Assembly (NCBI GenBank): GCA_905250025.1
Contig: CAJNOJ010000256.1
Span: forward strand, 82,179-146,178
Length of the DNA: 64,000 nt
Reading direction: 5' to 3'
Source: Adineta ricciae
Lineage: Eukaryota; Rotifera; Eurotatoria; Adinetida; Adinetidae
Part shown: in pieces, positions 31,249 to 62,135 of the stretch
Numbering within the stretch: the stretch's first letter is position 1
How the letters are laid out: every line of letters starts with the position of its first letter
Made by a program: the position numbers and the translations under genes
Notes under the pieces: model-generated
The model's input: the letters and a program-made list of their open reading frames with translations, nothing else
Database searches by the model: none
Told to the model about the DNA's origin: nothing

Positions 31249-31249
31249 N
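31249..31249. other. Single-N scaffold join
   Basis: Allele 2 ends in a T-run. The next contig starts inside the same gene, earlier, with 279 bases identical to the end of the contig at 20,961. Confidence 0.95.
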
Positions 31250-40251: not shown

Positions 40252-40692
40252 ATGGCACTTTTTCAACGAAATCAAATCGGTTTTAAAGAAGAGCAACATG
40301 GTACTGTAACACCAGCCAATGATCTTGCTCGACTTATGTATTATTTTAATTGTGTATGCTATGTCATTCAATACAATGATTCTGATGTTAGTCGACTTCG
40401 AAATTGCCATAATTGGGCATCTTTATCAGCTGCAGAGATTCGTCTTCTTCTTGCTCTCTGCTCGACGCTTTCGCCTGATGTTTTTAATAACAAGGTGTTC
40501 TTTCAGTCGGATGCTTTATGTGGCAGCAGCCAAAACAAATTCTTTGAAATAAGTCAAGTTAGTAATCAGTTATTAGCTGTCGATTCCATTATCATCGCTG
40601 GTCGACGATATCGAGTGAACAAGATTATGACATATAAAATGTCTTGGATGTATAATAATTATATAAATCCAATGCAACGAATTGCACAATAA
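40252..40692 (+). CDS. Hypothetical protein, allele 1 (shortened)
   Basis: 146 codons from ATG 40,252. The protein has no signal peptide or membrane helix. It contains two cysteines in a YYFNCVCYVIQYND segment and a C-terminal stretch LLAVDSIIIAGRRYRVNKIM. I do not recognise the family. The final codon that reads CAA in the other allele is TAA here, which removes 15 residues; the missing codons are still present downstream. Strong conservation between the alleles supports a real gene. Confidence 0.55.
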   Translation: MALFQRNQIGFKEEQHGTVTPANDLARLMYYFNCVCYVIQYNDSDVSRLRNCHNWASLSAAEIRLLLALCSTLSPDVFNNKVFFQSDALCGSSQNKFFEISQVSNQLLAVDSIIIAGRRYRVNKIMTYKMSWMYNNYINPMQRIAQ

Positions 40693-40893
40693 CTGAATAC
40701 AAGAACTTCGAATTCCTCTGCATGTGTCATCTCGTAAGAATAAACAAATAAACTATTTAGCATGTTTTACATTCAATTGTAATGAGCAAACAAAATAGGA
40801 ATCACAATTTTTGAAATAATATTCGTTTCAATGAACGTATATTCATTTTTCTCATAATTAAGCTACGAAGGAAAAAAACAATAAAACGAAGAT

Positions 40894-41961
40894 TCATAGT
40901 TCCGTTCGATCTTGATCATCTTTCGTGTATGGGATGTAGAGCTCAGCACTACTTTGAAGTTTATTTCCATAACCACCAGTGACTAATACTCTACCATTGT
41001 TTAATACAGATATTGTGTGTCCATCACGTGCGTAATTTAAATTGTTAGTCAATGTCCATGTCTCTGTTAATGGATCGTATAACTCGGCAGTGTTCATCGG
41101 TGTAGCGTTGTTTGCTTGCCCACCAATGACTAAAACTTGTCCGTTAGCTAAAAGGCATGCTCCTGGGAACATGCGCGCTTCATTTAAATCACCAGCCGTA
41201 GTCCAATGACCCGTCGATGGATCGTACAATTCAGAGGTGTACAGCAATTCATGCTCATCATCCGATCCGCCGATAATCAAAACTTTTCCGTCGGTTAATA
41301 CAGCTGCTGTATGGTAAGTTCGTGGATAATTTAAATTACCAGAAGGAGTCCACATGTTCGTTGATGGATCATATAATTCAGTAACGATAACATATTCACC
41401 AGCAGCATTACTTCCTCCAACGATCAACACTTTTCCATTATTCAATACAGAAGCTGTATGCCAGTTCCGTGCATGATTCATTGGAGTAGTAACAGTCCAA
41501 CTACCCGTGGATGGATCGTACAATTCAGCAGTGTTTAGAAGTGTACCTCCTCCAACTATTCCACCAGTCACCAAAACTCTACCATCGTTTAACACGACTG
41601 CTGTATGCATTCGTCGCGGATACTTCACATCGGCACCTGCCGTCCATTTCCCTGTCGACGGATCATATAATTCAGTGCTATTCGAATCACCGCTACCAGC
41701 GACTACTAAAACTTTTCCATTGTTTAATACAGATGCTGTATGCAAGTTTCGTGCGTAAATCATGTTTCCAGTGGCTGACCATTTGCTTGTTGATGGATTG
41801 TATAATTCAGCAGTTGCAGGTCCATCGCCTTCGCCACCAACTACTAAGACCTTTCCACTGGGTAACTTCAGTGCTGTATGAAACGCTCGTACGTGTTTCA
41901 TACTACCGATCTTTATCCATCCTGAAGAGAAGTTATACCGAGTTAATATAGGCTGTTCCAT
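40894..41961 (-). CDS. Seven-repeat kelch protein, allele 1
   Basis: 355 codons without an intron. Seven repeats of about 48 residues, each with ARxxHTA, a VLNNGKVLVVGG strand and an ELYDPSTGKW turn, which would close one beta-propeller filling the whole protein. No BTB or F-box partner domain is present. Lack of introns and the repeat wording are more like bacterial kelch/galactose-oxidase-like proteins than animal kelch proteins, so transfer from bacteria is possible. Compared with allele 2 an extra base near the start shifts the frame upstream of the ATG at 41,961, so the first 27 residues or so differ. Confidence 0.75.
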   Translation of the reverse strand: MEQPILTRYNFSSGWIKIGSMKHVRAFHTALKLPSGKVLVVGGEGDGPATAELYNPSTSKWSATGNMIYARNLHTASVLNNGKVLVVAGSGDSNSTELYDPSTGKWTAGADVKYPRRMHTAVVLNDGRVLVTGGIVGGGTLLNTAELYDPSTGSWTVTTPMNHARNWHTASVLNNGKVLIVGGSNAAGEYVIVTELYDPSTNMWTPSGNLNYPRTYHTAAVLTDGKVLIIGGSDDEHELLYTSELYDPSTGHWTTAGDLNEARMFPGACLLANGQVLVIGGQANNATPMNTAELYDPLTETWTLTNNLNYARDGHTISVLNNGRVLVTGGYGNKLQSSAELYIPYTKDDQDRTEL

Positions 41962-42596
41962 TATTATTTAATCTATTACTTACTATTGGTCTGTGAAGTA
42001 TTACATAGTATCTGGTCAATGACAAAATAAAAAATGCTTATATAAATATTGATTTGCATACTCTGATTTGACTGCTGTATTCACTTTGCAAAGAAGAATC
42101 ACTTTTGAAAGGCTCGATCGATAATGTTCTTTTACCAAATGAAAATCACCTGTGATTGTTCTCATCGTTCTTTCTTTTATTATATCTTCATTCTATTCAT
42201 ACAGATATACAGTAAAACTTATGAATATCCAGAATAAAAATATAATCCTTTTTTTCTCTTTGGAAAAATTGTTACTGAGTGTACTTTATAATCGATGGTT
42301 CGATGATACTCTCGTATTAGATCCGAATATGTTCTTCTACTTGAATTAGCTAATATTAGTTTAACTGTCGGCTAAATATCATCTGATTAGTATTGACTAG
42401 AAAACCACCTTGCACTTTATCTTCATTTGTAGTTACTTCGCATTGTTGCAACCGATTCATGGAATAGAAAGGAACTGTTGTGAGGTTTTTATGAGATTTA
42501 TTTGAGAAATAATAACTGGTATGTCGCATAGAAATTGTGTTACATCTTTTAAATAAAGTCGCTTTAATTTCTTGGAAATTCTCTGCGCCGTAATAC
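41962..42596. other. Intergenic
   Basis: Between two leftward genes; closely matches 53,856-54,426. No gene seen. Confidence 0.45.
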
Positions 42597-45500
42597 TCAT
42601 AGATACGGGCTGTCGAAATGAAGCTGTTGTTGCTTATGTAGTTTCAACGTAATCATGTTTTTTCTGTATAGCTCGGCAGTTGATCTTGAGAAAATTGAAT
42701 CTCGTACCCTTTTCTCAGGCTTTTTTATGTCAAAGAGTGAATCATCATCATCATTGGTTTCAACCTCTCTGGTGAATCTGGTAAATTCATAGTAATCGGA
42801 ATCATAATAAGTTTTAAGACGTTCGTAATCATTTTCCGGAAACACTTCAAGTTGCACTCGGACACTAACTATTACACTAGTTGGATCTGTACCAGAGTCT
42901 GTTCGAATCAATTTGACACAGCCGTTGCTTACATTTTGTTGTCGCAGGGTTGTCCAAAGGATTGGGATTTCTTCATTCAAATAATGGCACGTGCGGTATC
43001 TTTCATCTACTTCCTGTTCAGTGCTAAAGTGACTTTCAATGGCCTTCATGCTAATTGGTTTAACGTCCCAAAGAAGATGCTGTAGTTCATTTTTCAGATA
43101 TGATAACACACACTTTTTATAATACAGATTGGCTTCCTCCGATCTTTCACATAGCTTGGCTATATCGTAGTAAGACAGAGCAATCATGTTATTATATGTG
43201 CTTGCATTGTGTTCATTGTGTGATCGCACCTCGACTTCATTCCAGCAGAGTTTTGTCTGAGATATGCGTAGCTGGAGAAAATTTATTTGCCACAACTCAC
43301 TGTCGATGTTGCACACCTCAATTTTGGGTATTGCAAGTTCCATATCACGTGATTGTAGATTATGTTCGTCCTTCAATAACATCTCGACAAATCTTTTGTG
43401 CCATTCTATAGCTAAAGGAACTTTTTCGCCTCCTTGCTTTGCGTATAATAAAGCAATATGTCGCGGTGTGATGAGGTAATTGTGTGACATAAGTTGCGAG
43501 AACATCATACCAGTCTCAAACGCTTTCTCAAACCATTCTATTGTCGAATTCAGATCGCCTTTTTCTTCATATAAACAACCGATCTTTTTATACAAGAAAG
43601 GTACATTACTGTAATGATATTGCTTCTTCTGAGTAATACATTTGCCGGATTTCGATTCAATTTCTATAAGCTTCTTCAAACAATCAATGGCAAAATCGTA
43701 GTTTTTGCGCGAAACAGCCAGCTCGACGATATGCACGTATGAATAGACAATAAACCCATATAGTGATGGTAGATATTGTATGGCATAGTCAAGAAAGCGT
43801 TTACGATTTTCTATAGTATCATTATAAGCTTTCACAATATATTCAAACACCATTTTATGCAATTTAGTGTTTGGAATTTTCTCAATCGTTCTCTGATACA
43901 TGTCCCATGTTAAGTCAAACTTTTGTTGCAGTTTATAAATTGCAGCCATATGAATTGAGCTAATATTTCGAAATTCATCAAGATTAATCCATTGACGATC
44001 AATACATCTTATGTTATTATACTGCTCTGCTTTCATATAAAAATCTATTGCTTGATTGTAATTATTTCGCTTTCGGTTAACTGCTCCAAGACAATTGTAT
44101 ATATTCAGTAGAAGATCAGTCAATGATAGTCGTGCTCGGTCGTATAGTTGCAATGCTGTTGTCTGGTATCTCAATGCTAGGTCATACTGATCATTTTCAC
44201 ACGCAATCCAACCTAAGCCAACGTAACAAGCACAGATGTTTTGATCATCTCCATGAAAATCATTTAGTAAGCTGTTATAATATTTCGCGGCATGAGATTC
44301 GTGTAAATATGACCTTTGTATTAAGTAGCCAATGTTTATGAATTTTGACTCGATTGAGATTGCTGACGGAAGTTGAGGATTAGGGTATGTTAAATCTTTA
44401 TAACTAATCAAGGAGAACTTGAATATATGTAAATTTTGTTGTTCGTCGTATTGGGTTGCAGTTAGGAGTAACATAGACCCGATCATAAACAAAACTTCGT
44501 CTTCGTTGGAACCAAAATAACTCAAGTGGCCAATATATGCAAATGGTTTTTGTGATAAACGGGCATCTGCTTCTATTTCAAACAAGACTGAAATATAGCC
44601 ATCGCTACGTGGTGTTGCCGAACCGGTGATACCAGAAAAGATTAGCGCAGTTGACCGATTTGTAGTCGTCGACAGAAGACTATTTATAGAATATGTAAAA
44701 CCAGCGAATTTTTCAAGATAAATCACTTCTTCACGTGTCATCAATTGACCGCGATAAGCTTTCAATATAGGTCTATCATCGAAATATTCTAAATATTCTT
44801 CCTGCACTGATCTCAATTGTTTGCAAATATCCAATAGATAGAAGCGAAAGTAAAGCGCTGCTTCCATATTTTTCTGTCTTAAGACTCCGTTCAGAATACG
44901 GTATAAAAAGCAATTTCGCGTGTACCACCAAATAGCTTTAGCAGGATCATAAGTCTTCTCAAATTCATCGATAATTTCTTCAGTCATGGTATTACCTTTA
45001 TAATACATCTTGCACTTATCGATTAATGTTTGTCTATCGTTATTACTAATCGGTAACGAAAGTGCAATATCAATCGATCGCTGGTACCACATTTCATTGA
45101 CACCAATATACGATGTTGTAGTGCCACCTGTCGAACATTCAAAGAGCATATTTGCATACTTGGTCAACGTTGCTACTTTTTCACCCAATTCGCTTAACAA
45201 TTTTTGCAGCTGCACGTATACGCCACATACCTGCATACGAGGAAACATTCGGTGTCATTCAAACTGACAGAAACGTCTTATCACTTGAGAAAAATCTCCT
45301 ACCTTAGGATAATCCATGTCCATTGCACATTCGTTATTCTCATCGGTCAGATACACATACACTGCATGTACGGGTTTGAGTTGTTGAACAGATATAAGAA
45401 AATGTTGTATCTGATCTCTTTTATTATAATTTGATGAAATAATAACGAATACTTTGGCTTGATGTGTACTTCTGAGATAGTCGTTGCATTCGTCTGCGTG

Positions 45501-45632
45501 ATTAAAAAATTTAAAATAATCAATTATCGCACGCATTCTTATTTCAAGTTCATTATCGACAATGTTTTCTGTATCAAACCATATCAGTGCCAGTTGTTCC
45601 AAGTTTTTACTTCGATCGAACGCATCATCCAT
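42597..45632 (-). CDS. Arginine-type ADP-ribosyltransferase with TPR repeats, allele 1
   Basis: Two exons (45,632-45,303 and 45,230-42,597) joined in phase over a 72-base intron give 987 residues. Residues 1-110 are an N-terminal domain (LALIWFDTENIVDNELEIR, HAVYVYLTDENN), also seen in the gene at 1-3,053. The transferase domain has Arg270 in AYRG, Ser297 in SLLSTT and E353-D354-E355 in SNEDEVLF, the full R-S-E set, so activity is expected. About ten TPR units follow (for example YDLALRYQTTALQLYDRARL, DFAIDCLKKLIEIESKSGK). Both alleles are fully open, which argues for selection. Confidence 0.88.
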
Positions 45633-46221
45633 ATTTTTCTGAAATAACGAATTGATACATATGTGTTTACACCGAATGCTGCGAAGCGACCTTCACCAAA
45701 AAATGAAGTTGTTTTTTTTTGTGTTACGTGTAACAGTGGCAAGTTATAAATTTTCATCGTTCTGAATCATTTAAACGAAACGAGAAAGAACGTTCTCATA
45801 TATTAGTCATCTGTCAGCATGTGTAAGTTTCTTTAGTGCAGAATGACGATTCAAATGAATATTGAAAATTTCATTATCTTTCGTACGACTTGCATCATGA
45901 TATGAATCAGTATAGTAAATCAAATCCTATTCATTCTGCGACAGTTAATCTTGCTTGTGCACCAAGTAATCGTTTCACATGTATTCATGGCTATTATTTT
46001 GAACTTTGATTTCAATTGCAATGGGTGAATTCAACGAAATCATGTCTCACTTTTATATGAAATATTTACAGAATTCATTCTCTAATTTTACTGTACGAAT
46101 GAGGTATTATGAATAGTATCAATCGTATCTAGCTAAATGACCTTTTTCAATTAGATATATCTTAAAAAACATTTTAGAAATGTGAATGTGGATGTCTCTT
46201 CTCCTCCATGCTTTCAAAAAT
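45633..46221. other. Intergenic
   Basis: Upstream of the ART-TPR gene; no gene seen. Conserved at 57,463-57,951. Confidence 0.45.
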
Positions 46222-47250
46222 TCAAACAGTCGAACCATTCTCTTTCGAAGAACCGATTGAATAAATAATTGAAGAACGCATTTTTCTAACGTTTTCAAAT
46301 CTAGTTTCAACATAAATCGTCCAATGTCTTTCAGACCAAAACGTTGAAGTAAATGAGTCAACCAACGCGACATGTTCTTCAGTGTCCAATTGACCAGCAG
46401 CTAATGTTTCGTATTTAACATTTAAAATACGCAAGCCAGATACAAAATTGACTATTAATTGTTCCCATCGATTAGCATCTATGAAATCGAAATGAGAAAC
46501 GTTTTTCAGGCGTAGAACTTGAAGTTGAGAGCCCATTGATTCAATAAACGTTTGGAAGCGATCGAAATTCATATCACATATATTAATCGACAGGTGTGTC
46601 AGATGGCAAGGACCCATAGACGGATCCCAGTGTGATGGTATCAGCTCGTTGCATACCAATTGCTTGAGTTGCGGTGCCAATGATATCAGCATTCGAAAAT
46701 TACATAGTAAATATTGAGGTAGTATCAAATGCTGGATTGTACTGATAGATGTATCCAAAAACAGAGTTAACAAATGACGGCGTCCCTGAACAGAGATCTT
46801 AAGCGATTTCAATGTTGGCAAATAATATATATAATGAAACAGTTCTTTGCAGTTCTTGTATATGTCATTATGAATAGTTAAAGAAAAGAGTCGAGGTAGA
46901 CTTGCTAGTATACGCAAAATATGCGTTTGTGTATCTGTAGGAATATTGCAAATCATCAGTGATTCGAGACGGTTAAAGAAGATGCCAGAATAAATTGCTC
47001 GAAGAAGTAAATCACTCGGCTCGACATCGGGAATTTTAAGAGAAAGAAGTCGATCATGATTTGGATACAGGAGATAATTGAAGTAAGAATTCATAAAAAC
47101 ATGCGATCCTGTACGAAGTTGAATTTTTAATAACAGATTTCTATCATAGAAAAGATTATGAAAACGCGTATTGAGTTTGGCGAATATATAATACAGATCA
47201 TATCCATCGAGATACTCAAATATTTCCAAGAAAGTTTCAATATTCATCAT
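46222..47250 (-). CDS. F-box/LRR-like protein
   Basis: 342 codons from ATG 47,250 (the frame is open a little further upstream). It begins with an F-box (NIETFLEIFEYLDGYDLYYI, then FHNLFYD). About 270 residues of irregular leucine-rich strands follow (RLESLMICNIP, LPRLFSLTIHND, QLQVLRLKNV), ending in a short basic tail. F-box proteins recruit targets to SCF ubiquitin ligases; this bdelloid-type family is large and its targets are unknown. All but the last 185 bases are deleted in the other haplotype (57,952-58,137), so the gene is hemizygous here. Confidence 0.75.
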   Translation of the reverse strand: MMNIETFLEIFEYLDGYDLYYIFAKLNTRFHNLFYDRNLLLKIQLRTGSHVFMNSYFNYLLYPNHDRLLSLKIPDVEPSDLLLRAIYSGIFFNRLESLMICNIPTDTQTHILRILASLPRLFSLTIHNDIYKNCKELFHYIYYLPTLKSLKISVQGRRHLLTLFLDTSISTIQHLILPQYLLCNFRMLISLAPQLKQLVCNELIPSHWDPSMGPCHLTHLSINICDMNFDRFQTFIESMGSQLQVLRLKNVSHFDFIDANRWEQLIVNFVSGLRILNVKYETLAAGQLDTEEHVALVDSFTSTFWSERHWTIYVETRFENVRKMRSSIIYSIGSSKENGSTV

Positions 47251-47390
47251 TACCTTTCTTTGTTGTAGCAAAACAAAATTATGACTACTTCGATGAAGTG
47301 TTGCGCGAAAAGAAACAGTGGTTTTTCTTCCTCTCTCATGACGTATTTTATTTTTATTCAATTCTGAGCATACATGCAAATTCGGATGAG

Positions 47391-48874
47391 TCAGTGTTTT
47401 TGAGAGCTTTTACCAATGTCCTTCGCATTTGTGGCTGTTTTTCTTGTTTGTATTTCATCAGCTCGGCCTCGTAAGTTGAAATTTTCAGCAGTTGATGACA
47501 GATTTCTAGTGGTTTCTAGAAACTTTTTCAACTTGTTTAGCCAGTTGTTTGATGAGATTTTCGGTTTCATGAACTCGCTGCCATCTCCAACTGCATCTTC
47601 TATCCTCTCTTTCAATTTTTCGCGATCTTCTTTTGATATCATATACTCAGCAAGTTTCCCAGCTTTCCTCAAAGGATCTTTCATGTTTTGCACTGCATTA
47701 GCTACACTTTTCCATCCACCTGGAATGACTCATCCAATCTGATCTTCTGCAGATAAAATCCATAACAAACAGAGACAATAAATTAGTACAACTGCAGCAA
47801 GTATTGCTACTGGCAAAACAATATAGAGAATGAAAACTAATATAACAAGTCATGGACGTTCGTATAACTGTAGATTAAGAACTCCAAAATGGAAACAAAG
47901 TCGATGACCACAACAGCGACATGGTCGAGTGACTCGATAGACTCCAACTGTTTTTTCCATTACACGATGGATGCCTGTTGCCACACCGAGACGTTGTTGA
48001 AATACAAAGAGGAGAAAACGTATGAAAACTTGGGCGACGGCTCCTAAGGCATCTGGTAGACCTGTACAAGCACCGATCTATGTCATGATGTCCGATATTG
48101 TTACGTCACGTCCAATCCAACGAAAACATGTAGCTGATTTAAAATACGATAAACTGATCGACTTGTCAGGAGTACATTGAAAATAAGTGTGATTCGAGCC
48201 ATAAAAACAGTCCATAATACCATAAGTTCGACAGGGTCCATCATCATAAACTGTTACATTAGCTAAGAAACATGCTTGAAACCCAACAAGAGCAACTGAA
48301 GCTATAACTGTTGTAGTCAGAATCGTGATTAAGACGACATTTGACTTTGTATCTGAAGTTAGATACTTCCCGTAAACATATAAGATCACGCGTTCGTTTT
48401 CGAGATGTCCGATATGTGTTTTTGGAACAACTGGAGTATCCGTCTCTTCGTTTTTGTCATCCGAAGGTGACTCACTTGGTGTTTTCTCCGTTGAATTTTC
48501 TTCATTGGACTCGTCTTGCTTTATATCACTAGTAGAAAGAGGTTTTTCAGTTATATTAGTATAGATTGACGATGGTAAATCAACGATTGGTGTAGTAGTA
48601 ACATTTTTCAATGTACTCGGATTTTTTACCACGACGCTTCCACAGAAATTACCTAATTTCTTGACGAGAGAGCAACATTTTCTCTGGCGAACATTTAAAC
48701 CGTACATATCCTTATTTCTCGTAATAATTTCATGATGCACATCGATAACATAACGTTTTGTATTAAAAAGTTTCTCGACGACAAGAGAAAAACCATGAGA
48801 AAGGTAACTAGCACAAAAATCAAGACACCAACAGAAGTATTACATATAATCCAGTCCCAAAACTCCCATGCCAT
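47391..48874 (-). pseudogene. Multi-pass membrane protein pseudogene with three in-frame stops
   Basis: One frame runs from about 48,760 to 47,391, broken only by TAG at 48,078-48,080, TGA at 47,850-47,852 and TGA at 47,730-47,732. A frameshift near 48,780 separates it from an N-terminal helix (VGVLIFVLVTFLMVFLL). Readable parts: a Ser/Thr/Glu-rich loop, a helix (NVVLITILTTTVIASVALV), CRTYGIMDCFYG, IGACTGLPDALGAVAQVFIR, a helix (LYIVLPVAILAAVVLIYCLC) and a charged tail. Few other changes are seen, so the inactivation looks recent. Absent from the other haplotype. Confidence 0.65.
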
Positions 48875-50271
48875 TTTTCTACAGCTTAATAACAATCATT
48901 GAAGGACAGTGAATGCTTGAAACGAAGAGAGATTACAATAGAACTATATTAATTTTTTCACAGAATGAAACAAATCAAACAATGTTGACCGGGAATAAAT
49001 CCATAAAACAACAAGATCACTATTCACTATGTAAACGTATGTGTGACGGTTACTATCGTACACAATCGAAATAGCTGTTGTGATCAGAAACTAAACTTGC
49101 TGACTTTTTCTGTCGTGGCAACAGAACATTAAAAATTCTGTTTTTACTCACAGTACAGAGCTTTTTCCCCTATAGTGGACGGTTTGATTTTCGTCTTGCG
49201 CCAGTCGTGCTGTACATATACGTTGAAACAATCACAATCTTACATTATTCAGATGAAATTAAAGTATAAGCATGGGAAACAAGAAATCTCTGCAAAAAAT
49301 TTGAATTGTTTTCATATTTGTTCTCTTGGTAACTGTTCAGCAATGTTTCTTGTTTCTAGAACTTCAACGATTGCAACGTCGCACTAAGTTCTCAGAAAAC
49401 AGTATGTATTCGACATTGTTCGTAGGTTGATTAATACTTTCTTTCTTATTCCATTAGAAATTCGACAATGGCATACCGTAAATGACATAATATCCTTCAA
49501 GAAGTAGTTTTTAGAATTTTCTTCAGGGTTTTTTCCACGACTGAGAAGGCGAAGAACTTACAAGAGAAAAATTCATTTCAATATTCAAGAAATTCTACAT
49601 ACCAAATATAATAAAAGTGCAAGCTTTTTGCGAGTAAAATCATCTATACGACAACGGAAGATGTATCTTTGCTTGTTAAAGTTATGTATTCGGAGCTTTC
49701 GATAAGGATTCCTAGTAGTAATCGACTTTTCCAATCAACGCGACACAGAAAGTCGATTGAATTTGATTTTTGACATGTAAGTCCAATTTGAATTTATTTG
49801 ATTTTCTTTTCTTCAAATTGTGCACTTTCCCAAGATGAAATGCCTCATAGATGCTGGCGAAATCGATGCGAATGAATTGGAGAAAGTAACACCGCACATA
49901 TGTCAAGAAAAAGGGAAGTGATCAAATGAGTATGAAGTGCGGACATGATAAAAAGGAGAAAAACACATCAATGTATTCATTAATGAGTAATAACTGAAAA
50001 AAAAACTGAAATACGTAAACATAAGCAGAAAAGGCGATGGGCGTACGTGTTTAACATGGTCTGTACATCGTGTTGTAATTTGGTAATTTCCTTTTTTTCT
50101 CCGTTTCGAGCTCAATAGAAGCGCATAAGTATATTAAAATGTGATCAATATTCACAATAAAATATCATATTTTTTCGTCTAATCGAAAGGTGAGGCTACC
50201 TATTTATTTACGGTATATACACTGTGCTTTTTTCATCTTATTCTCATCGAATGTGTACTGCAGACAGATCG
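48875..50271. other. Intergenic
   Basis: No secure gene. A conserved short plus-strand frame (49,247-49,390; KQEISAKNLNC) recurs at 58,170-58,310 and might be an exon, but no partner exon was found. Confidence 0.4.
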
Positions 50272-50515
50272 ATGAGGCTCCTGTCAAGGTATCCATGGTT
50301 ATGTTTTTACTTTCTCTTGCTTCGACAGAATGTCCATGGACTTTGGCCCTCTTCAAACTCTTCGGCAGTTCAACTGTTAGGTATTGCACAAAGGGAACTC
50401 AATATAAAAAATACTAGTTCATCATCGTTTTATCAAACTCAAGCACTGTTTTACTCAGCGATGTTACTCGCTCAGCAATACAATATCACTGTCGGAGGAG
50501 AATATCTCGGTTGGA
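50272..50515 (+). pseudogene. Ionotropic glutamate receptor, truncated allele
   Basis: Matches the first 80 or so codons of the receptor at 59,184 (signal peptide YPWLCFYFLLLRQNVHG, then QQYNITVGGEYLGW). Identity stops abruptly at 50,515, where an unrelated C-rich sequence begins, and the contig ends at 50,811. The frame runs to a stop at 50,584 in foreign sequence. Either an insertion broke this allele or the contig end is chimeric. Confidence 0.7.
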
Positions 50516-50811
50516 AATTACAGCAATGTCCAAGGTACCATACTTTAGGAATTCCTACAGTTCCTAAAAAATACAGCAAAAACTAATCAATTCCTTACAG
50601 AACTGGGAACTCACCCTCATTTCCTACACAGTTCCCTATCAATTCCATCCTCCATTCCTAACACATTACTTTATTTCTCACACACCACCTCAATACCTAT
50701 CCACAGTCACTACTACGATTCCCAAGTTCCTAACCAAGGAACTGATGCCACGACAATACCTACAAAAGGAATTGAGGAAATCAGTAGAACTGACCGACAT
50801 TTCCCTAACAG
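50516..50811. other. C-rich, G-poor sequence of unknown origin
   Basis: About 296 bases in which TTCCTA/TCCTAC-like words recur and G is rare on this strand, unlike everything nearby. No coding frame beyond 40 codons, and no match elsewhere in the window. It could be the edge of a mobile element, a satellite or a misassembled end. Confidence 0.5.
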
Positions 50812-51935: not shown

Positions 51936-52082
51936 ATTATAAAACACATGATATTCTGCGTCATGGAATGAATGAATCATCACAAGGAAGTTGTCAAATA
52001 ATTTCCAACAACAACAGGATTCTCAGAAGTATAAAAGCACCGAGCGAAATCGTAAAAGAAAAGAAAAAGTTTGAAATTAGTG

Positions 52083-52568
52083 ATGGCATTGTTTCAACGA
52101 AATCAAATCGGTTTTAAAGAAGAGCAACATGGTACTGTAACACCAGCCAATGATCTTGCTCGACTGATGTATTATTTTAATTGTGTATGCTATGTCATTC
52201 AATACAATGATTCTGATGTTAGTCGACTTCGAAATTGCCATAATTGGGCATCTTTATCGGCTGCAGAGATTCGTCTTCTTCTTGCTCTCTGCTCGACGCT
52301 TTCGCCTGATGTGTTTAACAACAAGGTGTTCTTTCAGTCGGATGCTTTATGTGGCAGCAACCAAAACAAATTCTTTGAAATAAGTCAAGTTAGTAATCAG
52401 TTATTAGCTGTCGATTCCATTATCATCGCTGGTCGACGATATCGAGTAAATAAGATTATGACATATAGAATGTCTTGGATGTATAATAATTATATAAATC
52501 CAATGCAACGAATTGCACAACAACTAAATACAAGAACTTCGAATTCCTCTGCATGTGTGATCTCGTGA
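52083..52568 (+). CDS. Hypothetical protein, allele 2 (full length)
   Basis: Same protein as 40,252-40,692 but with CAA in place of the TAA, so it continues through QLNTRTSNSSACVIS (161 residues). Other differences are few (Ser/Asn, Lys/Arg). This is probably the intact form. Family unknown. Confidence 0.6.
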   Translation: MALFQRNQIGFKEEQHGTVTPANDLARLMYYFNCVCYVIQYNDSDVSRLRNCHNWASLSAAEIRLLLALCSTLSPDVFNNKVFFQSDALCGSNQNKFFEISQVSNQLLAVDSIIIAGRRYRVNKIMTYRMSWMYNNYINPMQRIAQQLNTRTSNSSACVIS

Positions 52569-52724
52569 GAATGAACAGATAAACTGTTTTGTATATTTTG
52601 CATCCTCTTGTAATGATCGAACAAAATAAGAATCATAATAATTGAAATACCATTCATTTCAATAAACATATATTGATCTTTCTCATAATTAAGCTACGAA
52701 GGAAAAAAACAATAAAACGAAGAT

Positions 52725-53855
52725 TCATAGTTCCGTTCGATCTTGATCATCTTTCGTGTGTGGGATGTAGAGCTCAGCACTACTTTGCAGTTTATTTCCA
52801 TAACCACCAGTGACTAATACTCTACCGTTATTTAATACAGATATTGTGTGTCCATCACGTGCGTGATTTAACTTGCTAGTCAATGTCCATGTACCTGTCG
52901 ATGGATCGTATAATTCGGCAGTGTTCATCGGTGTAGCGTTGTTTGCCTGCCCACCAATGACCAGAACTTGTCCGTTAGCTAAAAGACATGCTCCTGGGAA
53001 CATGCGTGCTTCATTTAAATCACCAGTCGTAGTCCAATGACCCGTCGATGGATCATACAATTCAGAGGTATGCAGCAATCCATGCTCATCGTCTGATCCG
53101 CCGATAATCAAAACTTTTCCATCGGTTAATACAACTGCTGTGTGGTAAGTTCGTGGATAATTTAAGTTGTCAGCAGGAGTCCACGTGTTTGATGATGGAT
53201 CATATAATTCAGTAATGACAACATATTCACCAGCAGCATTACTTCCTCCAACGATCAACACCTTTCCGTCATTCAATACGGAAGCTGTATGCCAGTTCCG
53301 TGCTTGATTCATTGGACTAGTAACAGTCCATCTACCCGTGGATGGATCGTACAATTCAGCAGTGTTTAGAAGTGTACCTCCTCCAACTATTCCACCAGTC
53401 ACCAAAACTCTACCATCGTTTAACACGACTGCTGTATGCATTCGTCGAGGATATTTCACACCGGCACCTGCGGTCCATTTCCCCGTCGACGGATCGTATA
53501 ATTCAGTGCTATTCGAATCACCACTACCAGCGACTACTAAAACTTTTCCATTGTTTAACACAGATGCTGTATGCAAATTTCGTGCGTAAATCATGTTTCC
53601 AGTGGCTGACCATTTGCCTGTTGATGGATTGTATAATTCAGCAGCTGCAGGTCCATCGCCTTCGCCACCAACTACTAAGATCTTTCCATTGGGCAACTTC
53701 AGTGCTGTATGAAACGCTCGTACATGTTTCATACTACCGATATTTATCCATCCTAAAAAGAAGTTATACCCAATTAGTAGAAACTGTTCATTATCATTTG
53801 ATTTATTAGTTACTATTGGTCTGTGAAGTATTACATAGTATTTGTTCGATGACAA
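52725..53855 (-). CDS. Seven-repeat kelch protein, allele 2
   Basis: 376 codons, no intron. Same seven repeats as allele 1, with an N-terminal extension (YYVILHRPIVTNKSNDNEQF) kept open here and frameshifted in allele 1. Repeat consensus ARxxHTA / GKVLVVGG / ELYDPSTGxW. No signal peptide or added domain, so a cytoplasmic protein-binding propeller is likely. Confidence 0.75.
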   Translation of the reverse strand: MSSNKYYVILHRPIVTNKSNDNEQFLLIGYNFFLGWINIGSMKHVRAFHTALKLPNGKILVVGGEGDGPAAAELYNPSTGKWSATGNMIYARNLHTASVLNNGKVLVVAGSGDSNSTELYDPSTGKWTAGAGVKYPRRMHTAVVLNDGRVLVTGGIVGGGTLLNTAELYDPSTGRWTVTSPMNQARNWHTASVLNDGKVLIVGGSNAAGEYVVITELYDPSSNTWTPADNLNYPRTYHTAVVLTDGKVLIIGGSDDEHGLLHTSELYDPSTGHWTTTGDLNEARMFPGACLLANGQVLVIGGQANNATPMNTAELYDPSTGTWTLTSKLNHARDGHTISVLNNGRVLVTGGYGNKLQSSAELYIPHTKDDQDRTEL

Positions 53856-54426
53856 TATAAAAAATACTTATATAAATATTGATTTGCATACTCTGATTTG
53901 ACTGCTGTATTCACTTTGCAAAGAAGAATCACTTTTGAAAGGGTCGATCGATAATGTTCTTTTACCAAATGAAAATCACCTGTGATTGTTCTCATCGTTC
54001 TTTCTTTTATTATATCTTCATTCTATTCATACAGATATACGGTAAAACTTATGAATATCCAGAATAAAAATGTAATCCTTTTTTTCTCTTTGGAAAAATT
54101 GTTACTGAGTGTACTTTATAACCGATGATTCGATGATACTCTCGTATTAGATCCGAATATGTTCTTCTACTTGAATTAGCTGATATTAGTTTAACTCTCG
54201 GCTAAATATCATCTGATTAATATTGACTAGAAAACCACCTTGCACTTTATCTTCATTTGTAGTTACTTCGCATCGTTGCAGCCGATTCGTGGAATAGAAA
54301 GGAACAGTGGTGGGGTTTTTAGGAGATTTATTTGAGAACTAATAACTGGTATGCCGCATAGAAATTGTGTTAAATATTTTAAATAAAGTCGTTTTAATTT
54401 CTTAGAAATTCTCTGCGGCGTAATAC
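53856..54426. other. Intergenic, allele 2 of 41,962-42,596
   Basis: Nearly the same sequence as allele 1; no gene seen. Confidence 0.45.
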
Positions 54427-57400
54427 TCATAGATACGGGTTGTCGAAACGAAGCTGTTGTTGCTTATGTAGTTTCAACGTAATCATGTTTTTTCTGTATA
54501 GCTCAGCAGTTGATCTTGAGAAAATTGAATCTCGTACCCTTTGCTCAGGCTTTTTTATGTCGAAGAGTGAATCATCATCATCATTGGTTTCAACCTCTCG
54601 GAAGAATCCATTCATACTATGGTAGTCAGAGTCATAATAATTTTTCAGACGTTCGTAATCATTTTCTGGAAACACTTCAAGTTGCACTCGGACACTAACT
54701 ATTACACTAGTCGGATCCGTGCCAGAATCTGTTCGAATCAATTTGATACAACCGTTGCTTACATTTTGTTGTCGTAAGGTTGTCCAAAGGATTGGTATTT
54801 CTTCATTCAAATAATGGCACGTGCGGTATCTTTCATCTACTTCCTGTTCAGTACTAAAATGACTTTCAATAGCCTTTATGCTAATTGGTTTAACGTCCCG
54901 AAGAAGATGCTGTAGTTCATTCTTCAGATATGATAAGACACACTTTTTATAATACAGATTGGCTTCCTCCGATCTTTCACATAGCTTGGCTATATCATAG
55001 TAAGACAAAGCAATCATGTTATTATATGTGCTTGCATCGTCTTCATGGTGTGATCGCACTTCGACTTCATTCCAGCAGAGTTTCGTCTCAGATATGCGTA
55101 GCTGGAGAAAATTTATTTGCCACAATTCACTGTCGATATCACACACTTCGATTTGGGGTAGTGCAAGTTCCATAGCACATGATTGAAGATTATGTTTGTC
55201 CTTCAATAACATCTCGATGAATCTTTTCTGCCATTCTATAGCTAAAGTAACTTTTTCGCCTCCTTGCTTTGCGTATAATAAAGCGATATGTCGCGGTGTG
55301 ATGAGGTAATTGTGTGAAATAAGTTGCGAGAACATCATACCAGTCTCAAACGCTTTCTCAAACCATTCTATTGTCGAATTCAGATCGCCTTTTTCTTCAT
55401 ATAAACAACCGATCTTTTTATACAAGAAAGGTACGTTAGTGTAATGATATTGCTTCTTATGTGTAGCACTTTTGCCGGATTTCGATTCAATTTCTAGAAG
55501 CTTCTTCAAACAATCAATGGCAAAATCGTAGTCTTTACGCGAAACAGCCAGCTCGACGATATGCACGTATGAATAGACAATAAATTCATATAATGATGGT
55601 AGATATTGTATGGTATAGTCAAGAAAGCGTTTTCGATTTTCTATAGAATCATTATAAGCTTTCACAATATATTCAAACACCATTTTATGCAATTTAGCGT
55701 TCGGAATTTTCTCAATCGTTTTCAGATACATGTTCCATGTTAAGTCAAATCTTTGTTGTAGCTTATAAATCGCCGCCATATGAATTGAACTAACATTTCG
55801 AAATTCATCAAGATTGATCCATTGACGATCAATACATTGTACGTTATTGTATTGCTCTGCTTTAATGTAAAAATCCATTGCCTGTTCGTAATTATTCTCT
55901 TTCCGATTAATTGCTCCAAGACAATTGTATATATTCAGTAGAAGATCAGTCGACGACAGTCGCGCTTGGTCGTATAGTTGCAATGCTGTTGTTTGATATT
56001 TCAAAGCTAGGTCATACTTATCATTTTCACATGCAATCCAACCCAAGCCAATGTAACAAGCACAGGTGTTTTGACTATCTCCAAGGAAATCATTTAGTAA
56101 GCTGTTATAGTATTTCGCAGCATGAGATTCGTGTAAATATGATCTTTGTATTAAATAGCCAATGTTTATGAATTTTGACTCGATTGAGATTGCTGATGGA
56201 AGTTGAGGATTAGGGTATGTTAAATCTTTATAACTAATCAAGGAGAATTTGAATATATGTAAATTTTGTTGTTCGTCGTATTGGGTTGCCGTTAAGAGTA
56301 ACATGGCGCCTATCATAAACAAAACTTCGTCTTCGTTGGAACCAAAATAGCTCAAGTGACCAATATATGCAAATGGTTTTTGTAATAAACGGGTATCGGC
56401 TTCTATTTCAAACAAGACTGAAATATAGCCATCGCTACGTGGTGTTGCCGAGCCGGTGATACCAGAAAATATTAGCGCAGTTGACCGATTAGTAGTCGTC
56501 GACAGAAGACTATTTATAGAATATGTAAAACCGGCGAATTTTTCAAGATAAATCACTTCTTCACGTGTCATCAATTGACCGCGATAAGTTTTCAATAGAG
56601 GCCTATCATCGAAATATTCTAAGTATTCCTCCTGCACTGATTTTAATTGTTTGCAAATATCCAATAGATAGAAGCGAAAGTAAAGTGCTGCTTCCATATT
56701 TTTCTGTCTTAAGACTCCGTTCAGAATACGGTATAAAAAGCAATTTCGCGTGTACCACCAAATAGCTTTGTCTGGATCATAAGTCTTCTCAAATTCGTCG
56801 ATAATTTCTTCAGTCATGGTATTACCTTTATAATACATTCTGCACTTATCGATTAATGTTTGTCGATCGTTATTACTAATTGGTAGTGAAAGTGCAATAT
56901 CAATTGACCGTTGGTACCACATTTCATTGATACCAATATAAGATGTTGTAGTGCCGCCTGTCGAGCATTCAAAGAGCATATTTGCATACTTGGTCAACGT
57001 TGCTACTTTTTCACCCAATTCGCTTACCAATTTTTGCAGCTCCATGTATACGCCACATACCTGCACACAAGGAAACATTCGACGTCATCGAGATTGACAG
57101 AACAGTCGCATCACTTGAGAAAAATGTCTTACCTTAGGGTAATCCATGTCCATTTCACGTTCGTTATTCTCATCGGTTAGATACACATACACTGCATGTA
57201 CGTGTTTGAATTGATGAACAGTTGTAAGAAAATGTCGTATCTGATCTATTTTGTTATAATTTGATGAAATAATAATGAATAATTTGGCTTGATGGGTACT
57301 TCTGAGATAGTCGTAGCATTCGTCTGCGTGATTAAAAAATTTAAAATAATCAATTATTGCACGCATTCTTATTTCAAGTTCATTATCGACAATGTTTTCT

Positions 57401-57462
57401 GTGTCGAACCATACCAGTGCCAGTTGTTCCAAGTTTTTACTTCGATCGAACGCATCATCCAT
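54427..57462 (-). CDS. Arginine-type ADP-ribosyltransferase with TPR repeats, allele 2
   Basis: Exons 57,462-57,133 and 57,060-54,427 give 987 residues, exactly the length of allele 1, with the intron in the same place and of the same length. The R-S-E residues (TYRG, SLLSTT, SNEDEVLF) and all TPR units are kept. Substitutions are spread through the protein, many conservative, some in the last 60 residues (YEFTRF against HSMNGF). No indel separates the two over nearly 3 kb of coding sequence. Confidence 0.88.
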
Positions 57463-57951
57463 ATTTTTCTGAAATAACGAATTGATACATATGTGTTTAC
57501 ACGGAATGCTGTGAAGCGAGCGACCTTCACCTAAAAATGAAGTTGTTTTTTTTGTGTTACGTGTAACAGTGGCAAGTTATAAAATTTCATCTTTCTGAAT
57601 CATTTCAACGAATCGAGAAAGAACGTTCTCATATATTAGTCATCTGTCAGCGTGTGTAAGTTTCTTTAGTGCAGAATGACAATTCAAGTGAATATTGAAA
57701 ATTGTATTCTCTTTCGTAAGACTTGCATCATGATATGAGTCAGTATACTAAATCAAATCTTATTCATTCCGCGACAGTTAATCTTGCTTGTGCACCAAGT
57801 AATCGTTTCACATGTATTCATGGGTGTTATTTTGAACTTTGATTTCGATCGCCATCGGTGAATTCAATAAAAGCATGTCTCACTTTTATATGAAATATTT
57901 ACAGAATTCATTCTCCAACTTTACTGTACAAATGAGGTGTTATGAATAGTA
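57463..57951. other. Intergenic, allele 2
   Basis: Corresponds to 45,633-46,221; no gene seen. Confidence 0.45.
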
Positions 57952-58137
57952 TCAATGAATAGTAGAAATGTGAACGTGGATGTCTCCTCTCTTCCACGCC
58001 TTCGAAAATTCAAACAGTCGAACCATTCTCTTTCGTAGGACCGATCGAATAAATAATGGAAGAACGCATTTTTCTAACATTTTCACATCTAGTTTCAACA
58101 TAAATCGTCCAATGTCTTTCAGACCAAAACGTTGAAG
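57952..58137 (-). pseudogene. 3' remnant of the F-box gene
   Basis: Only the last 185 bases of the F-box gene at 46,222-47,250 remain, including its stop codon. They join directly to sequence matching 49,218 onward. A deletion of about 2.87 kb removed the rest and the neighbouring membrane pseudogene. Confidence 0.8.
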
Positions 58138-59183
58138 TATACGTTGAAACAATCACAATCTTACATTATTCAGATGAAATTAAAGCATAAGCATGGAAAA
58201 CAAGAAATCTCTGCAAAAGATTTGAATTGTTTCATGTTTGTTCTCTTGGTAACTGTTCAGCGATGTTTCTTGTTTCTAGAACTTCAACAATTGCAATGTC
58301 GCACTAAGTTCTCAGAAAACAGTATGTATTCGACATTGTTCGTAGGTTGATTAACACTTTCTTTCTTATTCCGTTAGAAATTCGACAATGGCATATCGTA
58401 AATGACATAATATTCTTCAGTAAGTAGTTTTTAGAATTCTCTTCAGGGCTTTTTCCATGACTGCGAAGGCGAGGAACTTACAAGAGAAAAATTCATTTCA
58501 ATATCCAAGAAATCCTACACACCAAATATAATAAAAGTGCAAGCTTTTTGCGAGTAAAATCATCTATACGACAACGGAAGATGTATCTTTGCTTGCTAAA
58601 GTTGTGTATTCGGAACTTTCGATAAGGATTCCTACTAGTAATCGACTTTTCCAATCAACACGACGCAGAAAGTCGATTGAATTTGATTTTTGACATGTAA
58701 GTTCAATTTGAATTTATTTGATTTTCTTTTCTTCAAATTGTGCAGTTTCCCAAGATGAATTGCCTCATAGATACAGACGAAGCCGATGAAAATAAATTGG
58801 AGAAAGTAACACCACACATATGTCAAGAAAAAGGGAAGTGATCGAATCAGTTTAAAGTACGAACATGATAAAAAAGAATGAAAGTCATCAGTGCGTGTAT
58901 TACTGAGTAATAGGTGGAAAAATCTGAAATAAACATAAGCAGAAAAGTCGATGAGGAGTACATATTAGATATGGCTTGCACACCGTGTTATACGTTGGAA
59001 ATTTCCTTTTTTTCTCCGTTTCGAGCTCAATAGAAGCGCATATGTATAAAATGTGATCAATATTCACAGCAAAATTTCATATTTTTTCGTCCAACTAAAA
59101 GGTGAGGCTACCTGTTTATTTACAGTATATACACTGTACTTTTTTCATCTCACTCTCGTCGAGTGTGTACTACAGACAGATCG
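58138..59183. other. Intergenic, upstream of the glutamate receptor
   Basis: Matches 49,218-50,271. No secure gene. A promoter for the receptor must lie here, but no clear TATA box is seen. Confidence 0.4.
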
Positions 59184-61844
59184 ATGAGGCGCCTATCAAG
59201 GTATCCATGGTTATGTTTTTACTTCCTCTTGTTCGGACAGAATGTCCGTGGACTTTGGCCCTCTTCAAACTCTTCGGCAGTTCAACTGCTAGGTATTGCA
59301 GAAAGGGAACTCAATATAGAAAATTCTAGTTCATCATCGTTTTATCAAACTCGTGCACTGTTTTACTCGGCGATGTTACTCGCTCAGCAATACAATATCA
59401 CTGTTGGAGGAGAATATCTCGGTTGGAACTTAATAGAAACAACTGGCGATCCCATCATTGCTCTTCGGGCTACATGTGAAACAATATCGACTTCCAACAC
59501 TGTTGGCATTGTTGGACCAGCTGTCTCAAGAGAAGCTCATGTTATTGCACCTTTTGGTGCAAGTATCAATATTCCAACAATATCCTATAGTGCAACTAAT
59601 CCTGAACTATCTGACCGAATAGCTAATCCAACTTTTTACCGCACAGTTCCATCGGACAATGATGCAGCAGTGACTATCGCTAATCTTTTTCTTGAATTCA
59701 ATTGGACAATGTGTCTAATTATTTATCAAAATGATGAATTTGGAACCGGAGGTGCTAAAGCAATTTCCGACGCATTTGTCGATAGTAACGTAACCGTCAC
59801 AGAAACGATGATCTTTGATTTAAATACGTTGTCTATTCGCGGTGACTTAAAAAGTACATTAACCGGCAGTTTAGCCAGAATTGTAATTGTATGGGCTGAT
59901 ACAAGTTACGCAACGCTAATCCTGCAAAGTGCTCTCAAAGCAGATGTAGTGGGTCCACTTTTTACATGGATATTAGGCTCTGATGTTCCGCTGACAGCTT
60001 TTGACGAAATTTGGTACGATCGTCTAATCGGAGTGCTTACAATTGGCCCCGTCGTCGGAAATTTAGCTAATGCACCTGTCAACCAAACATTGTTGAATGA
60101 TGCACTTGGCATTTGGCAGAAGTATGAACCTGAATCATTTCCTGGTACAGCGAATGTCGATTATTATGCGTTGTTTGCATTCGATGCAACATGGACGTTG
60201 ATTCAATCATTTGCACAATTGTGTCCCAATAGCACTGTATCGTCATGCATTACATTTACGAATACGTCGTTTTGTTTCGATCGACGTGTTCTGAATATCC
60301 ATTCGATATTTGATATCATCAACACAAATACTTTTCTGGGTGTTACAGGCCCTGTTCAATTTTCGACAAACAAGACGGACCGGGTCAATGGCACCTATTA
60401 TATTGTGAAAAATGTGCAACGTGTTTCAAGTACTCTAAAGTATGTTCCAGTTCTAATATCCACAAACTCAGCTGCATGGACGCCGCAAGCACAAGCGAAT
60501 GTAATCATTTGGCCTGGTCACTCACTAGCTGTACCGACAGGCTATGCATCGCTTCAAGGTGTCACGTTACATATTGCCATTATACTCACAGCGCCATTTA
60601 CTATGATGAAAGAATACGTAGATCAAAATGGAATAATACAGAGGAGACTCACTGGATATATTCCAGATTTGATTGACCACTTGCAACAAAAAATGGGATT
60701 CGTTCCAAATATTACAGTGCTGCCAGAAAACATCACATATAATAGTTTACCCGATCTAGTCGCAAGTAATGTTTATGATCTAGTGGTGGGCGATGTCACA
60801 ATTATGGCGTCGCGAAGAACAAAAGCGGCCTTTTCTGATTCAATCTTCGATAATTCATTACGTATTATGACTCGACAAAAGACCGAAGAAGAAGTTCATC
60901 GATTTGGTTTCCTTCGTACATTTGAACTACGCTTATGGATGGTTATTCTCGGTTGTCTTGCAGGGTCTGCTTGTCTATTTTTCTTATACGAAGGACGTGT
61001 GCATACAGATTTAAGAAATAGATCAATTCTCTCTCGTATAGGAATGAGTATTTGGCTTGCTTTTGGAACACTTATTGGATATGGCGCTGATTTTCATACA
61101 AGTTCAGCTCCTGGACGAGTTTTAACCATTGGGATATACATTACAAGTCTGGTCCTGATCAGTGCATACCAAGCATATCTCACCGCGAGTATAACTGTTT
61201 CCATAGCGCAAAGTTCTTTCTCTGGCATTGATGATATTAAAAATGGAAAAGTCGCATACAATAGAATAGGTATTATCAGTGGCTCATCCATTGAAGATTA
61301 CTTCCTTCGAGAAATATCTGATGGCAGTCGTACTTATTACGTACTAAGAGACAAACAGGATATGCTCGATAAATTATTAAGTGGAATAATAGATGTCTCA
61401 ATCATGGATACGGGTTTTGCCGAATTCGTTACAAATTCTATGTATTGTAATTTGACCATTATTGGTGCGGGTTTTGATCAAAGTGAATTCGGGATCATTT
61501 ATCCCACGAAATGGCTGTATGAACAAGCTTTAGACGTGACGATATTATCACTGCGTGAATCAGGAGTGTTCGACGATCTGAAAAGTAAATGGTTTCAAAC
61601 AAATAATTGTACAAGTTCGTCAACGGACACACCTATGAAGTTAACACTTGGAGCGCTAGCTGGCTTATTCATTGTCTTTGCAGTAGTTAGCGCACTTTCA
61701 ATGCTGATGTTTCTATGGGTGAAACGCCGAGCACTACTTAGATATGTACGGCGACGTCGATCAAGAAATGCCATTGCTCTCAATCCTGCATATCGTCCAT
61801 ATGCTCAGCATCTACCCTATATTGCTGGATATCACCAGGTTTGA
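59184..61844 (+). CDS. Ionotropic glutamate receptor with potassium-channel-type filter
   Basis: 886 residues from ATG 59,184, no intron. Signal peptide (WLCFYFLLFGQNVRG). Amino-terminal LIVBP-like domain to about residue 430 (GIVGPAVSREAHVIAPFGAS, FNWTMCLIIYQNDEFG). Ligand-binding S1 from about 460 with GYIPDLIDHL and an Arg in ASRRTKAAFSDS. M1 is LWMVILGCLAGSACLFF. The pore loop reads WLAFGTLIGYGADF, with TLIGYG at about 629-634, like the TVGYG of K+ channels and unlike the usual Q/R/N site. M3 ends SAYQAYLTASI in place of SYTANLAAF. S2 has SGSSIEDYF and MDTGFAEF. M4 is GLFIVFAVVSALSMLMFLW, then an Arg-rich tail. Known relative: AvGluR1 of Adineta vaga. Expected to pass K+ when agonist binds. 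Confidence 0.9.
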   Translation: MRRLSRYPWLCFYFLLFGQNVRGLWPSSNSSAVQLLGIAERELNIENSSSSSFYQTRALFYSAMLLAQQYNITVGGEYLGWNLIETTGDPIIALRATCETISTSNTVGIVGPAVSREAHVIAPFGASINIPTISYSATNPELSDRIANPTFYRTVPSDNDAAVTIANLFLEFNWTMCLIIYQNDEFGTGGAKAISDAFVDSNVTVTETMIFDLNTLSIRGDLKSTLTGSLARIVIVWADTSYATLILQSALKADVVGPLFTWILGSDVPLTAFDEIWYDRLIGVLTIGPVVGNLANAPVNQTLLNDALGIWQKYEPESFPGTANVDYYALFAFDATWTLIQSFAQLCPNSTVSSCITFTNTSFCFDRRVLNIHSIFDIINTNTFLGVTGPVQFSTNKTDRVNGTYYIVKNVQRVSSTLKYVPVLISTNSAAWTPQAQANVIIWPGHSLAVPTGYASLQGVTLHIAIILTAPFTMMKEYVDQNGIIQRRLTGYIPDLIDHLQQKMGFVPNITVLPENITYNSLPDLVASNVYDLVVGDVTIMASRRTKAAFSDSIFDNSLRIMTRQKTEEEVHRFGFLRTFELRLWMVILGCLAGSACLFFLYEGRVHTDLRNRSILSRIGMSIWLAFGTLIGYGADFHTSSAPGRVLTIGIYITSLVLISAYQAYLTASITVSIAQSSFSGIDDIKNGKVAYNRIGIISGSSIEDYFLREISDGSRTYYVLRDKQDMLDKLLSGIIDVSIMDTGFAEFVTNSMYCNLTIIGAGFDQSEFGIIYPTKWLYEQALDVTILSLRESGVFDDLKSKWFQTNNCTSSSTDTPMKLTLGALAGLFIVFAVVSALSMLMFLWVKRRALLRYVRRRRSRNAIALNPAYRPYAQHLPYIAGYHQV

Positions 61845-62063
61845 AAACAGAAGTAACTGACTTTCTGAAGATAGTGTTAAACTGTTCATTGTATGAATTT
61901 ATTAATAAATGATCATTCTGCAATTCTATTATTTCCTACTTTAAATATTTGTAATTGCAACGATGAGGTAATACGTATATTGAGAAAAGCACGATATGTT
62001 TTAAGTATTTCCTGTATGTTATGAAATTTCGCTCGTTAGCGTGCGAGGGAAAAAGAATATTGG

Positions 62064-62135
62064 TGGAGGCAGTGGGAATCGAACTCACGACCTATCGCAC
62101 GCACTTCGATCGCTCTACCACTGAGCTACACCCCC
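62064..62135 (-). tRNA. tRNA-Ala(TGC)-like gene with unusual features
   Basis: The minus strand folds as a 72-base cloverleaf. The acceptor pairs 7 of 7 with G-T allowed, including G3-T70, the alanine identity pair. The D arm is GCTC/GAGC and the T loop is TTCGATT. The A box (TAGCTCAGTGG) and B box (AGTTCGATTCC) are good, and a T5 terminator lies 9 bases past the end. The anticodon by position is TGC (Ala). Oddities: base 33 is G instead of T, one mismatch at the base of the anticodon loop, one in the T stem, and CCA is encoded after A73 (62,063-62,061), which nuclear genes normally lack. Functional status uncertain. Confidence 0.65.

Follow-up and report, generated by a model that had tools for sequence, protein, structure and literature searches.

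The window analysed here is a 64,000-nucleotide stretch of the rotifer Adineta ricciae, corresponding to positions 82179-146178 of contig C256; the end of the window is the last base of the contig. The genome searched was a 130-Mb assembly of 1033 contigs. At 59184..61844 on the + strand, the window carries a single-exon gene for an 886-amino-acid receptor. This gene is a real, intact, previously undescribed paralogue of the kind known from AvGluR1 of Adineta vaga. What is new is the family around it, in which a K+-type filter was altered on several occasions and lost in one lineage.

The receptor gene and its nearest relatives

The reading frame was open from ATG to TGA, and no intron interrupted the coding sequence. 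Pfam analysis of the protein gave matches to ANF_receptor (E 1.8e-35) and Lig_chan (E 1.2e-20), and also to SBP_bac_3, Peripla_BP_6, and Lig_chan-Glu_bd. The order of parts in the single chain was amino-terminal domain (ATD), ligand clamshell, and M1-pore-M3-M4. The ATD, delimited by the ANF_receptor match, comprised residues 77-408 (59412..60407, + strand, as are all receptor features below unless stated). Lobes S1 (residues 453-567; 60540..60884) and S2 (residues 679-809; 61218..61610) were delimited by their match to the ligand-binding domain (LBD) of AvGluR1 (4io2), the closest solved relative of the part comprising the LBD and the transmembrane domain (TMD) (E 1.7e-79). The segment GDVTIMASRR (60789-60818) within S1 holds the conserved (alpha-carboxylate) arginine. 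Hydropathy analysis revealed three strongly hydrophobic stretches: M1 (residues 584-602; 60933..60989), M3 (hydrophobic residues 646-664; 61119..61196 including the motif AYQAYLTASIT at 61164-61196), and M4 (residues 828-846; 61665..61721). An initial annotation of the window, made from its letters, had described an intronless gene at this position with a GYG motif and full amino-terminal and ligand domains, and our analysis agreed on each of these points. A frame error, which that annotation had named as a possible objection, is unlikely because the whole frame could be aligned to PDB receptors and the ratio of non-synonymous to synonymous substitution rates (dN/dS) relative to a tandem gene pair on contig C496 was 0.275 and 0.257. 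Among the parts of the protein, S2 had the smallest ratios (0.13-0.14) and the tail the largest (1.26 and 0.81). The window gene is under purifying selection.

The LBD of the window protein was 53.3% identical to that of AvGluR1 (4io2) over 246 positions, whereas the closest copies of the AvGluR1 LBD in the genome, L012 and L011, reached 82.9% and 81.7%. Because two other genes are this close to AvGluR1, orthology of the window gene was ruled out; of the two relationships offered initially, orthologue or further paralogue, the second is correct. Its nearest relatives were the tandem pair on C496 (85%), followed by a pair on C256, L032 and L033 (62-64%). All five of these genes had GYG. The start of the window gene lies within one arm of a segmental duplication (40106-50526 and 51937-59346) whose blocks are 91-96% identical and include kelch and TPR genes. 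The spacing of the duplicated blocks was ~11.83 kb in the left, kelch/TPR part and 8.91 kb in the right part near the receptor. In the other, left arm lies a truncated receptor copy (50272..50526; 87% identical), which covers codons 1-85 and ends there.

The pore loop, the filter, and the ligand pocket

The pore loop SIWLAFGTLIGYGAD (61047..61091) contained GYG at residues 632-634 (codons GGA TAT GGC; 61077..61085), flanked by the hydrophobic stretches 584-602 and 646-664. The printed alignments with GluK1, GluA2, and GluD1 were gapless through the pore loop and placed GYG over animal QQG (RQG in edited GluA2); therefore, the first glycine occupies the Q/R/N site. GYG is thus located inside the loop; a position outside it had been named in the initial annotation as a possible objection. 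The genome's own AMPA-type receptor, L005, read HQGVD where the window gene read GYGAD. GYG is evidently no chance triplet, because the same column carried GYG in 19 of 30 core relatives (defined below), window gene included.

The claim that this motif is a K+ filter stood only in part: GYG was present in the pore loop, but a strict K+ filter was not. K+ channels read TVGYGD, and Thr75 and Asp80 of KcsA flank the filter. The window gene had leucine in the Thr75 column and alanine in the Asp80 column, with Asp one position later. Across the 28 core rows having a pore loop, the Thr75 column held Leu in 15, Ile in 9, Cys in 3, Phe in 1, and Thr in none; the Asp80 column held Val in 18, Ala in 8, and Trp in 2. 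Against the K+-channel Pfam model, Ion_trans_2 (curated cut-off 22.5 bits), the window TMD scored 13.4 bits (E 0.075), below the cut-off and no nearer to K+ channels than GluA2 (15.4 bits). A passage of PMC3483616 describes AvGluR1 as having the motif "yet is permeable to Na+", and PMC2766643 reports that TIGYG put into HCN4 conferred no K+ selectivity. All of these observations weigh against a K+-selective window receptor. Together with the collinearity of the loop with those of GluA2, GluK1, GluD1, and L005, they favour a different view, that GYG makes no K+ channel and that an ordinary non-selective loop of an ionotropic glutamate receptor (iGluR), with QQ turned into GY, passes both Na+ and K+ as in HCN or AMPA channels. 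We consider this view rather unlikely. K+ selectivity of AvGluR1 is stated in passages of two later papers (PMC11479355, PMC12226733), and an AvGluR1-like pair on contig C202 scored above the Ion_trans_2 cut-off in a whole-genome search. A passage of PMC12332018 states that the AvGluR1 pore loop bears the K+-channel signature.

The whole-genome Ion_trans_2 search, in which the best 150 of 182 candidates were scored with E up to 0.001, gave at least 89 matches; the C202 pair were the only family loci among the matches listed. Ten K+-channel-type pores were read among these matches. Six had the Thr and four (two near-identical pairs, LIGYG/LVGYG) had Leu in its place. Absence of Thr is therefore a caution and no disproof of selectivity, and its use as proof of poor selectivity was weakened. 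The four Leu pores (L058, L059, L062, L063) carried His after LIGYG or LVGYG, in place of TVGYGD.

The family TMDs were also compared with Ion_trans_2. All 13 tested matched with E ≤0.18 (best 1.1e-5; 1.5e-4 for the GNG-bearing L010), and L012, L031, L018, and L014 reached the cut-off. Among five eukaryotic controls, GluA2 gave E 0.018 and L005 3.9; GluK1, GluD1, and GLR3.4 gave no match. One of two bacterial controls lacking GYG matched (L043, 6.7e-5) and the other did not; thus, matching is not tied to the filter. Since GluA2 and L043 score without GYG, similarity to the K+-channel profile was weakened as proof of K+ ancestry. The window receptor would likely prefer K+, with a selectivity probably weaker than that of true K+ channels; because the Thr and Asp that flank GYG in K+ channels are missing, the preference may be weak and HCN-like.

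The initial annotation had pointed to a departure in M3, which we found: the window gene read AYQAYLTASIT, compared with SYTANLAAFLT in animal receptors. YTANLA was kept in 19 of the 30 core rows. At the Thr of YTA, Gln was present in the window gene, the C496 pair, and L032/L033, and Thr in 21 core rows. The departure goes with this small group around the window gene; the GYN-bearing pair of L016 likewise had Gln in M3.

Ligand-pocket residues were located by motifs and are given in what we take to be GluA2 numbering. The window protein retained T480 and R485 and had G653 replaced by Ser, T655 by Ile, and E705 by Asp. T480 and R485 were present in all 30 core rows, and D705 in all 27 having that column. 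According to a passage of PMC6307864, glutamate binders have Gly653/Thr655 and glycine binders have Ser653 with a non-polar residue at 655, with exceptions in ctenophores. AvGluR1 is described in a passage of PMC12226733 as responsive to Ala, Met, Cys, and glutamate and not to glycine. Because of Ser653, the non-polar residue 655, and D705, the pocket suggests a small or hydrophobic amino acid as ligand, glutamate being less likely; "glutamate receptor", the name given initially, is therefore not supported with regard to the ligand. The subunits would assemble as tetramers, and binding of such an amino acid would close the clamshell and pull M3 open. Carbonyls of GYG would form the narrow site in place of the Q/R/N side chains and would favour K+, and the receptor would tend to hyperpolarise and not to excite. 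If the K+ flow is real, amino acids would inhibit, not excite, the cells bearing these receptors.

The filter series and its history

The genome gave at least 73 matches to Lig_chan and at least 54 to the window protein, the best 51 of 81 candidates being scored in the latter case. After frame reading, the family set consisted of 30 core rows and five divergent rows. One stop-to-stop frame of at least 817 codons was present in 24 core rows, and the other six were truncated or split. The number of distinct genes is below 30, because near-identical homologous copies were counted among the core rows. The family count does not include L006 and L008 (loci already represented by L009 and L010), other Lig_chan loci such as those on C84, C375, and C2, or fragments on C525, C338, C124 (258250 and 201052), C496 (32772 and 36207), and the window itself.

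The filters in the core rows were GYG (19), GHG (3), GFG (2), GNG (2), and GYN (2), and the pore loop was missing from two. Among the five divergent rows, the filter column read GRD in two, SVN in two, and RTN in one. In the codons seen, Tyr was one base away from each of Phe, Asn, and His. AvGluR1 was the one eukaryotic channel of the glutamate-receptor type with a K+ signature in the passages of the literature consulted, and no account of a multigene AvGluR family, of altered filters, or of members lacking the pore appeared in the titles and abstract openings searched, mostly without subscription papers.

The two members without a pore loop, L048 (on contig C79; positions 907-3765 of L048, - strand) and L049 (on C96; positions 911-3769 of L049, - strand), each had a stop-to-stop frame of 952 codons. 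Both kept the ATD, clamshell, and binding residues, but ~20 pore-helix and filter residues were missing. The dN/dS values between them were 0.20 in the ATD, 0.32 in S1, 0.22 in S2, 2.5 in the TMD (15 non-synonymous and 2 synonymous changes), and 0.93 in the tail, all based on small numbers; the ATD and the TMD differed in their synonymous and non-synonymous counts (Fisher p 0.0019). Because L048 and L049 share the deletion, the constraint on the extracellular part acted after it.

The relatives with other filters or without a pore could be decaying pseudogenes, in which case the filter series would be noise. Family fragments are numerous, six core rows are damaged as noted, the TMD and tail of the poreless pair are unconstrained, and the GRD pair had dN/dS of 0.83. 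However, every core variant filter was identical in both of its homologous copies (in three rows for GHG), dN/dS was 0.13-0.45 in the other 15 of the 16 pairs compared and 0.21-0.40 for the GNG, GFG, GHG, and GYN pairs, and the ATD, S1, and S2 of the poreless pair are constrained. Decay is an improbable explanation.

A tree was built from 43 rows and 384 columns with the filter columns omitted; the set did not include NMDA, epsilon, and lambda receptors or other rotifers, L036 was outside the tree, and L045 was outside both alignment and tree. The 34 family rows (30 core and four divergent) formed one clade (support 100/99). A single clade of GYG rows was rejected by the AU test (p 1.96e-6), indicating that filters changed repeatedly. 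At least five filter changes were needed on the tree, a count that is unrooted and made with long branches present and the family base weakly resolved. GHG, GYN, and the poreless pair were nested in GYG-bearing groups (support 83/81 to 95/92), and we therefore take GYG to be the ancestral filter of the core family.

We consider it fairly probable, as a joint reading of these sequence data, that the window gene encodes a subunit of an AvGluR1-type amino-acid-gated cation channel and that its variant and poreless relatives descend from GYG receptors. GFG, GNG, GHG, GYN, and the poreless form would be states in which the GYG filter drifted or was re-tuned; the poreless end-point may still bind ligand but would have no pore of this type through which to conduct. 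More tentatively, a K+-filtered amino-acid receptor of one rotifer lineage may have grown into a large family in which the filter was rebuilt several times and deleted once, the poreless members being non-conducting sensors, decoys, or subunits. With GYG, GFG, GNG, GHG, GYN, or no filter at all on a single scaffold, natural proteins can be used to test what the filter alone decides. The series suggests that in receptors of this type a K+-type filter can evolve and is not a frozen relic. If the reading is correct, the poreless pair, with its extracellular part constrained and its membrane part not, would be a naturally occurring example of a ligand-gated channel that turned into a non-channel.

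Origin of the family and comparison with known systems

AMPA, kainate, and delta receptors formed a separate clade (100/99), and the family fell outside it. The family could be attached only tentatively to the animal side (support 83/29), and the AU test rejected neither a grouping with plant GLR3.4 (p 0.451) nor one with bacteria (p 0.329). The suggestion in the initial annotation that the gene bears on the link between prokaryotic and animal receptors is consequently not supported as stated. Two scans of the prokaryote genome collection and one of viral contigs, each with one motif pattern, confirmed no relative among 139, 12, and 7 raw pattern matches; because a single pattern was used per scan, relatives lacking the motif could be missed. 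A bacterial origin by recent transfer was rejected on these scans. Plasmid records yielded 15 distant bacterial receptors, 14 of them 21.0-27.2% identical over 58-78% of the query and one 32.5% identical over 17%.

The bacterial grouping bears on the proposal that GYG goes back to a K+-channel-like ancestor common to all glutamate receptors and was retained, a link of GluR0 with animal receptors that the initial annotation had implied. The Ion_trans_2 matches (E ≤0.18 in 13/13 family TMDs, and in one of the five eukaryotic controls) and the unrejected grouping with bacteria are in its favour. Weighing against it are the bacterial control that matches the model without GYG, a pore loop collinear with the animal loop, and the missing flanking residues of K+ channels. 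The most divergent family rows (GRD, RTN, SVN) lack GYG and were weakly placed (67/77 and 56/32), and the bacterial relatives that were read, from five plasmid records, were non-GYG and 21-26% identical. Such retention is improbable.

The 24 long core frames were uninterrupted, whereas the pore-M3 region of L005 contained a 57-nt candidate intron with GT-AG ends, removal of which restored animal sequence. Contigs of size rank ≥124 made up 11 of the 16 with core genes and 3 of the 21 with other Lig_chan matches (Fisher p 0.0016); 24 of the 30 core genes were on contigs of these ranks, which hold 47% of the assembly (interpolated). This location on smaller contigs fits poorly assembling regions. 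Intron absence and location, the top rank of plant GLR3.4 among full-length PDB matches of the window protein, and the S1 motif GD[VI]T, common to the family and GLR3.4 and not to AMPA/kainate receptors, speak for horizontal transfer of the family into the rotifer from a eukaryote other than an animal, with later expansion. However, the tree does not join the family to plant GLR, no donor was found in a sample of one plant and few animal classes, and retroposition also removes introns. TGTGGG telomere-type arrays were present on ten other contigs and on no family contig, and a telomere-proximal location was rejected; a reversed-pattern control was uninformative because the reversed pattern is a rotation of the same repeat. 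We regard such a transfer as rather doubtful; possible origins of the family are this transfer, retroposition, and ancient vertical descent.

The window also contained other features. An open-ended frame at 3-3059 (- strand) carried TPR repeats together with Pfam matches to ADP-ribosyltransferases (PF01129, PF03496), and a frame at 9060-10265 (- strand) matched synaptobrevin (E 1.2e-6, 28.7 bits, cut-off 26.4). Two closely similar 269-codon frames lay ~10.25 kb apart (13802-14611 and 24053-24862, - strand), and two closely similar frames adjoined each other (30170-31147 and 31206-31982, + strand); Pfam scans of the first frame of each pair gave no match. A tRNA-Ala (TGC) gene was located at 62061-62135 (- strand), ~0.2 kb downstream of the receptor gene.

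Among known systems, HCN channels share GYG without a preceding threonine (LCIGYG according to PMC2766643); however, they are voltage-gated and of other architecture, and the analogy applies to weak selectivity only. A passage of PMC2950845 distinguishes prokaryotic receptors whose filters are of the K+ type (Group 1) from others that have no such filter (Group 2). GluR0 of Synechocystis and Group 1 resemble the window receptor in having a clamshell and a K+-channel-type filter. According to a passage of PMC11479355, GluR0 lacks the ATD and M4; the window gene has both and is therefore not of GluR0 type. Plant GLR3.4 was the best full-length PDB match outside AvGluR1 and shares GD[VI]T in S1, but has FSH around the GYG column, no GYG, and the classic M3 SYTASL. 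Animal AMPA, kainate, and delta receptors share the gapless pore loop, four membrane segments, and conserved binding arginine. The window gene differs from them in having GYG for QQG, a changed M3 motif, Asp for E705, and no intron, and in belonging to a family outside their clade; relative to AMPA and kainate receptors, its M1-pore linker is also shorter. AvGluR1 shares with the window gene the receptor architecture (known for AvGluR1 from reviews), GYG, and Asp in the E705 column. The two differ in the pocket, which is T/A/G in AvGluR1 and L011/L012 and S/S/I in the window gene, and the AvGluR1-like L011/L012 have M3 SYTANLASDLT where the window gene has AYQAYLTASIT.

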